DNA from: Methyloceanibacter stevinii | GTDB lineage: Bacteria > Pseudomonadota > Alphaproteobacteria > Rhizobiales > Methyloligellaceae | Direction: 5' to 3' | Assembly: GCF_001723355.1 (NCBI RefSeq) | Contig: NZ_LPWE01000013.1 | Span: forward strand, 1-64,000 | Length of the DNA stretch: 64,000 bases | Part shown: piece by piece, positions 1-721 of the stretch | Position numbering within the stretch: position 1 is the stretch's first letter | How the letters are laid out: the number at the start of each line of letters is the position of its first letter | Made by a program: the position numbers and the translations under genes | Notes under the pieces: model-generated | Told to the model about the DNA's origin: nothing | What the model saw: the letters and a program-made list of their open reading frames with translations, nothing else | Databases searched by the model: none

Positions 1-165
1 CGCCGGAAGGCTGCCCAACAAACAAAAACGGACGGCGGCCGACCAGCGCCCCGCACGTCCCTTCGGGACGAAGTCCCCGCTTCGCGGGTCTGACTTAGGA
101 AACGTAGAGAGATTTTGGTGAACCTGGTGCCGGACGGAGCGGGGGTCTTGGCGCGCCTTCTCGGC
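1..165. other. Non-coding stretch, no gene seen
   Basis: No convincing reading frame. It holds two short GC-rich hairpins around 58-90. Its last 15 bases (151-165) recur almost exactly at 283-297, each time directly before a TGTCAT palindrome. Confidence 0.5.
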
Positions 166-197
166 TGTCATGCCCCGACTGATCGGGGCATCCAGTA
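166..197 (+). repeat. TGTCAT/CCAGTA palindromic repeat, copy A
   Basis: The unit starts TGTCAT and ends ATCCAGTA, with arms GCCCCG and CGGGGC around a 6-base loop. It is the same family as the copies at 232-264, 298-368 and 689-721. Confidence 0.8.
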
Positions 198-231: not shown

Positions 232-264
232 TACTGGATCGCCCGGTCACGCCGGGCGATGACA
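232..264 (-). repeat. TGTCAT/CCAGTA palindromic repeat, copy B (inverted)
   Basis: It starts TACTGGAT and ends ATGACA, with arms CGCCCGG and CCGGGCG around a 5-base loop. It is in the opposite orientation to copy A, so A and B together form a 99-bp unit with TGTCAT ends and no gene inside. Confidence 0.8.
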
Positions 265-297: not shown

Positions 298-368
298 TGT
301 CATACCCGCACCGGCGCTCAAGTAGCGCGAAGCGCGGTAGCGCATAAAACACATGCGGGCATCCAGTA
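298..368 (+). repeat. TGTCAT/CCAGTA palindrome, copy C, interrupted by a GCGCTCAAG hairpin
   Basis: Left half TGTCAT then CCCGCA; right half TGCGGG then ATCCAGTA. The loop, normally 5-6 bases, is here expanded to about 45 bases and contains a complete copy of the other repeat family (314-343). Confidence 0.75.
314..343 (+). repeat. GCGCTCAAG hairpin repeat, copy 1
   Basis: A 30-bp element: outer arms GCGCT and AGCGC, a constant CAAGTA after the left outer arm, inner arms GCGC and GCGC around GAA, and a constant GGT before the right outer arm. It is identical to the copy at 3480-3509. Confidence 0.85.
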
Positions 369-371
369 AGC

Positions 372-671
372 TTAGGTGGTTGCGATTGATGGGTAGAGGT
401 CGTCCCAGTTGGCGTTACGCTCCTCGATCAGCTCGATCTTCCAGGCCCGGTTCCATTTCTTCAGCCGCTTTTCGCGCTCGATTGCGGCCGTGATGTCGTC
501 GAACTGTTCGAAGTAGACCAGTCGCGCTACGCCATATCGCTTTGTGAAGCCTTCAGCGGTTTTGGTTCTGTGTTCATGAACACGCCGGATGAGATCGTTG
601 GTCACACCGACATAAAGCGTGCCGCCGATGCGGCTCGCGAGAATGTAGACGTAGTAGCGACGGTCCTTCAC
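372..671 (-). CDS. GIY-YIG nuclease superfamily protein (COG2827/UPF0213-like)
   Basis: A small single-domain GIY-YIG protein of about 99 residues. The family signature is split as YYVYIL, then GTLYVGVTND with an Arg-Arg-x-x-Glu-His helix, then an R-LVYFE strand and a basic EKRLKKW-R-WK tail, typical of the short stand-alone members. Family members are presumed DNA endonucleases; the cellular role is unknown. A longer frame starts with ATG at 722, but its first residues are the translation of the palindromic repeat at 689-721, so the GTG at 671 next to VKDRRYYVY is preferred. The gene is tightly enclosed by inverted repeats, which suggests that nuclease and repeats move or persist together. 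Confidence 0.85.
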   Translation of the reverse strand: MKDRRYYVYILASRIGGTLYVGVTNDLIRRVHEHRTKTAEGFTKRYGVARLVYFEQFDDITAAIEREKRLKKWNRAWKIELIEERNANWDDLYPSIATT

Positions 672-688
672 ATCGCTAGATTGGTGAG

Positions 689-721
689 TACTGGATCGCC
701 CGGTCAAGCCGGGCGATGACA
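689..721 (-). repeat. TGTCAT/CCAGTA palindromic repeat, copy D
   Basis: It reads TACTGGAT, arm CGCCCGG, loop TCAAG, arm CCGGGCG, ATGACA, differing from copy B by one loop base. It overlaps the possible 5' extension of the GIY-YIG gene. Confidence 0.8.

Follow-up and report, generated by a model that had tools for sequence, protein, structure and literature searches.

At the very start of a contig of Methyloceanibacter stevinii, a small GIY-YIG nuclease gene lies between two inverted palindromes, and a reading made from the sequence alone had proposed that gene and repeats form a REP/RAYT-like unit whose parts move together. The locus thus raises the question of whether the nuclease and the palindromes belong to one another. 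We pursued it in the window (the whole 64,000-nucleotide stretch of DNA analysed), in the rest of the genome and in related genomes. The appropriate reference is the superfamily of CGTC REPs described by Di Nocera et al. 2013 (PMC3733652), which have a [CT]GTC head, an 8-9 bp stem starting AT and a CCA tail, occur mostly as inverted dimers and include dRS3 of Neisseria, and for which no associated transposase gene was reported. CGTC REPs are widespread: Neisseria has them as dRS3, and many Alphaproteobacteria carry from tens to well above a hundred of them. How they are mobilised has been unresolved since 2013, with no responsible enzyme known.

The locus and its genome

The following features were identified at the left end of the window.

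148..165, + strand: 18 nt ahead of the gene-less unit, duplicated at 280-297 ahead of the gene-bearing unit; family D2 (28 nt, 89%)
166..197, + strand: left REP of a neighbouring gene-less REP pair (REPIN)
232..264, - strand: right REP of the same pair; within a direct repeat of 38 nt (95%) shared with 686-723
298..368, + strand: left CGTC-type REP; head TGTC, arms ATACCCGCA (302-310) and TGCGGGCAT (354-362), 8/9 pairs, tail CCAGTA
311..353, no strand: 43-nt interruption in the left-REP loop, holding a copy of another local repeat, GCTCAAG.AG...GGTAGCGC
372..671, - strand: GIY-YIG nuclease gene, 99 aa, likely GTG start at 671
372-722, - strand: longest frame of the nuclease ORF, from TTG at 722, inside the right REP
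689..721, - strand: right CGTC-type REP, TGTCATCGCCCGGCTTGACCGGGCGATCCAGTA

Inspection confirmed the gene between inverted palindromes, with TGTCAT at both outer ends (298-303, and as ATGACA at 716-721) and CCAGTA at both inner ends (363-368, and as TACTGG at 689-694), as the sequence-only reading had it. Its claim of two copies of one palindrome failed: the repeats are of one family, sharing head and tail, but their stems differ and the left loop is interrupted. It must further be corrected in that a second, gene-less REP pair adjoins the first, and the gene-less and gene-bearing units are in tandem, since the 18 nt before each left REP are duplicated. The longest frame does start inside the repeat, as claimed, but its REP-coded N-terminus is probably untranslated, the start at GTG 671 being inferred from the ends of homologues; both this start and the homologous part of the ORF lie outside the right repeat, while only 3 nt separate the stop codon from the left repeat's inner end.

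The window repeats fit the published description of CGTC REPs, from which the locus differs in the nuclease family associated with it. The TGTC head is present in 4/4 window REPs, and those at 166, 232 and 689 have the 8-9 bp stem beginning AT, the short loop and the CCA tail; the REP at 298 has the stem and tail, its loop being broken by the 43 nt. The core of the right REP is also that of a nuclease-free REP pair at G000:C5:91974-92068. The left flank of the cassette is short because window position 1 is the contig end. On the other side a HAMP-GGDEF diguanylate cyclase gene (824-2140), whose position is not conserved in the genus, adjoins the cassette. The short repeat GCTCAAG(C/T)AG...GGTAGCGC, found within the left-REP loop, recurs at 740-751 and is arrayed at about 2170-2352 after the GGDEF gene.

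The window ORF matches PF01541 (E=5e-16), and its nearest solved chains are the UPF0213 proteins 1ZG2 and 1YWL, small nucleases which it resembles in length, domain and catalytic residues and for which a REP association is undescribed in the literature searched. The active-site Tyr, Tyr, Arg and Glu are each at least 99% conserved among 161 homologues, and dN/dS is 0.06 at a Bradyrhizobium site considered below, indicating purifying selection. We therefore infer, from sequence, that the nuclease is kept as an active enzyme. It has weak similarity to phage homing GIY-YIG profiles, and no close homologue was found in phage records.

The genome contains one further homologue, a frame-broken remnant on contig C3 that is also bracketed by inverted REPs, so that flanking on both sides is seen at 2/2 nuclease copies. 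About 26 matches to the REP pattern occur in 3.2 Mb (mirror-pattern control 0), most forming + / - pairs about 57-69 bp apart, so the dispersed, mainly inverted pairs of the CGTC superfamily are also found here. At this density, by simple arithmetic, REPs on both sides within 200 bp would be expected at random for about 1 in 1e5 genes. The pairs carry either CCAG tails or other, mostly CCAC, tails, and CCAG-tailed REPs pair only with each other; the intact nuclease copy has CCAG REPs and the decayed copy has REPs of the other class, CCAC. The genome contains no match to Y1_Tnp (PF01797).

Association of the nuclease family with CGTC REPs

The 80 best loci from a search with the full ORF, a query that included REP-coded residues, comprised a first set. 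REPs were found within 200 bp in 70/76 loci with complete flanks, and on both sides in 46/76; the set includes Omnitrophota, Chloroflexota, Chlorobiota, Bacteroidota, Myxococcota, Thermodesulfobacteriota and several candidate phyla. These loci could not be accepted as 80 independent cases, as flank comparison showed that about 40 Bradyrhizobium loci are mostly one orthologous site between rmuC and an MFS gene. Because of this orthology, and because a REP-coded N-terminus could bias ranking, statistics were based on 144 alphaproteobacterial genomes drawn evenly over the class, searched with a 97-aa query lacking the REP-coded N-terminus. In this class sample a REP lies within 200 bp of 40/79 nuclease genes, and on both sides of 18/79. 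REP density is 2.69 per kb near nuclease genes vs 0.185 further out, a 14.5-fold enrichment, and mirrored and scrambled pattern controls near the genes gave 0. Across tests the enrichment ranged from 14.5- to 23.6-fold with pattern controls zero or near zero, and REPs on both sides were seen at 38/76 nuclease genes vs 13/383 control ORFs. The strict REP finder (GTCAT...ATCCA) overlooked some variants and was supplemented by a general finder and by a comparison of flanks that needs no REP model. In this comparison the upstream flank matched the reverse-complemented downstream flank more closely than the 99th percentile of the null for 30/80 genes vs 1/156 shifted controls. The enrichment predicted for homologues was therefore upheld against both background and pattern controls. 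These data show, by sequence, that a UPF0213-like GIY-YIG family is associated with CGTC REPs across phyla.

About half of the class-sample homologues have no REP by the finder. This in part reflects finder stringency (CCTC-headed and other variants), and in part may be real; since CCTC-headed variants of Sinorhizobium are missed, the REP counts are lower bounds. Close to the homologues in Sinorhizobium and Rhizobium tumorigenes (L274, L269) are palindromes with a CCTC head, or related ones (CTCATTCCTGTGCTTGTCACAGGAATCCAG), which escaped the finder. The Neisseria homologue sits in a dRS3 cluster. On a Planktothrix plasmid (L273) a homologue is located between genes for a type IIL restriction enzyme and a DISARM helicase, flanked by TGTCATTCTGAGTGAAACGAAGAATCTC repeats of a different palindrome class. 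Homologues L194 and L195 (genome G110) are near GTCATTGCGAGG...GCAATCCA repeats, another common palindrome type, which may have a nuclease lineage of its own.

The association extends to whole genomes, as REP density is 7.7/Mb in the 46 genomes with the nuclease vs 2.2/Mb in the 98 without it (p=1.3e-11). Presence of Y1_Tnp has no link to CGTC-REP density in the class sample (p=0.19). Seven REP-rich genomes have neither a nuclease of the family nor Y1_Tnp; REP-rich alphaproteobacterial genomes in which neither was detected include G119, G106, G118 and G129.

Nuclease and repeat type also correspond. One genome, G145, encodes ten nuclease paralogues with differing flanking repeats, and across the 20 genomes that have more than one paralogue, repeat similarity is far higher between both sides of a single gene (25.7) than between sides of separate paralogues of that genome (11.3), a difference reached in 0/20,000 permutations. 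Similar REPs within a pair could by themselves explain this result, and repeat types were therefore also set against the phylogeny of the nuclease. On that tree loop type needs 21 changes (mean of shuffles 29.8, minimum 25), and protein distance correlates with REP distance between genomes, both in the class sample (Mantel rho 0.16, p=0.022) and overall (rho 0.31, p <1/300). The tail base alone proved a weak marker of specificity (29 changes, shuffled minimum 29). At the Bradyrhizobium site A-type REPs accompany 17/17 A-clade nucleases vs 1/11 others (p ~8e-7, a hypergeometric count that ignores relatedness). Each nuclease lineage thus goes with its own REP type, and an enzyme gene that is flanked by REPs and matched to its own type is a feature of RAYT/REP systems that the nuclease meets.

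Cassettes at orthologous sites

The sequence-only reading inferred co-mobility, and its proposed check for empty sites found cassettes to be polymorphic at orthologous sites in close relatives. In Azospirillum lipoferum (AZO_p3) a REP pair, the nuclease and a second REP pair lie between sufB and sufC, while neither gene nor REP is present between sufB and sufC in A. ramasamyi, A. oryzae, A. sp. B510 and A. thermophilum, the first of these being 97.9% identical around the site. Seven Sphingobium plasmids carry, next to fnrL, a region of REP, nuclease and REP, with a disrupted reading frame in TomTYG73; this region is absent from TomTYG72, TomTYG65 and S. herbicidovorans, and replaced in TomTYG64 and TomTYG74 by a single palindrome with a head at each end. 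As outgroups are without REPs, insertion is suggested to be the derived state in both genera.

At the rmuC-MFS site in Bradyrhizobium, compared in 59 usable genomes, the alleles comprise empty sites, a lone REP pair of A type or of a third type, an A cassette, a B cassette, hybrids, and one cassette (L266, 373-651) in which the nuclease gene, lying between two B-type REPs, is inverted by comparison with every other genome at this site. The many copies at one conserved site indicate that much of the Bradyrhizobium persistence is vertical inheritance. The L231 allele has a double-headed palindrome that is precisely what a deletion between corresponding arms of the two B REPs should yield. Among the collected loci there were 5 double-headed palindromes and 0 double-tailed or control forms. 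Double-headed palindromes, with GTC at both ends, occur in L231 (278), L279 and L280 (near 1060-1160), L057 (5453) and L113 (1790). They resemble fused halves of two inverted REPs and could be excision scars, precursors or targets, a choice on which we are tentative.

Co-mobility is thus supported by joint presence and absence: these comparisons show, for three genera, that the cassette is gained or lost together with its REPs. This support does not extend to the window locus, for which no empty site was identifiable among 40 relatives, the neighbouring GGDEF gene not being conserved there. In none of 90 syntenic clusters could an exact point of insertion or a target-site duplication be defined for REP pairs, the flanks being too diverged, and no target-site duplication is visible at cassette ends, where intergenic flanks diverge at the joints. 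As to empty alleles of the homing type, in which the cleavage site would be intact, Bradyrhizobium has REPIN-only alleles and the Azospirillum empty sites are without a REP.

Interpretation and rival explanations

The REP-nuclease-REP cassette is probably a gene-bearing REPIN, that is, two inverted CGTC REPs enclosing a gene, in a system like that of RAYTs and REPs but built on an unrelated nuclease. REP cleavage and the route of copying are inferred, there being no biochemical evidence that the nuclease binds or cuts a REP. The substrate of the nuclease would be the REP hairpin (GTC head, stem-loop and CCA tail), probably in single-stranded or cruciform form, which it would recognise and then nick or cut. 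When the break is repaired, REP pairs, whether or not they enclose the gene, would be removed or copied to new intergenic sites. Since strand joining is not a known activity of GIY-YIG enzymes, copying is most likely the work of host repair, in a homing-like manner, and not of transposase chemistry. If the DNA between corresponding arms of the two palindromes were deleted, one double-headed palindrome would remain, as found in Bradyrhizobium and Sphingobium.

As in the RAYT/TnpA-REP system with its GTAG REPs and REPINs, inverted REPs flank the gene of a DNA-processing enzyme, gene-less inverted REP pairs are dispersed, and enzyme and repeat lineages are cognate. Unlike that system, the enzyme is GIY-YIG (PF01541) with no HUH/Y1 domain (PF01797), the window heads are TGTC, of the CGTC superfamily, rather than GTAG-tagged, and several different paralogues may coexist in a genome (ten in G145). 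As two defining RAYT features, a Y1/HUH gene and GTAG REPs, were tested and not met, this is not a RAYT, and the REP/RAYT-like unit of the sequence-only reading is supported by analogy only. GIY-YIG homing endonucleases of the I-TevI type share the nuclease domain and a gene within or next to a repeated putative target, but the window nuclease has no separate DNA-binding domain, intron or intein, and target cleavage has not been shown.

The rival that survives best, though we consider it unlikely, is that the nuclease is a homing-endonuclease-like passenger which uses REPs as a safe harbour or target, the REPs being spread by something else. It is favoured by the gene's ability to sit within a REP pair (the window and the Bradyrhizobium B cassette), by REPIN-only alleles at the same Bradyrhizobium site, by the REP-rich genomes without the nuclease, and by the weak similarity to phage homing profiles. 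However, it predicts on its own neither that REP abundance tracks the nuclease nor that repeat types are specific to paralogues. There is little to recommend a second view, in which a domesticated nuclease gene has kept the REPs as regulatory or terminator hairpins and neither gene nor REPs are mobile. Strong purifying selection and vertical persistence at the Bradyrhizobium site are in its favour, but it is inconsistent with close relatives lacking the cassette, REPs included, with the inverted nuclease in L266 and with numerous gene-less REP pairs. Less likely still is that RAYT (Y1/HUH) transposases, the known partner of GTAG REPs (PMC3733652), mobilise CGTC REPs with the nuclease gene as bystander: the M. 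stevinii genome is without Y1_Tnp, CGTC-REP density is predicted by the nuclease and not by Y1_Tnp, and RAYTs were rejected as the driver on this distribution. Chance, in that common REPs land near any small gene, has in its favour that REPs are intergenic and numerous in some genomes, but it is virtually ruled out by the enrichment and by the control ORFs.

We therefore return to the gene-bearing REPIN. Although biochemical evidence is lacking, the nuclease family is the best candidate so far for the missing CGTC-REP partner. A GIY-YIG-REP link was not found in the literature searched, but preprints and most subscription journals were outside its scope and a prior report cannot be excluded; a 2025 REP survey (PMC12306157) mentions neither nuclease, transposase nor RAYT. 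A bolder reading, which we can neither favour nor discount, is that CGTC REPs in many phyla, Neisseria dRS3 among them, are the non-autonomous form of a distinct minimal class of mobile element whose only protein is a GIY-YIG nuclease of about 95 aa. This would cut the REP hairpin and, relying on host repair and on no transposase, spread both its own gene and pairs of REPs; both cleavage and movement are inferred. With a single small nuclease, cognate repeat types and natural empty sites, the question of what moves CGTC REPs is directly testable in the laboratory. A nuclease partner for these REPs would also provide a function for the many small genes of a large family now annotated by domain only, as 'GIY-YIG nuclease family', and would mean that the arrangement of REP and enzyme arose with two unrelated nuclease folds.
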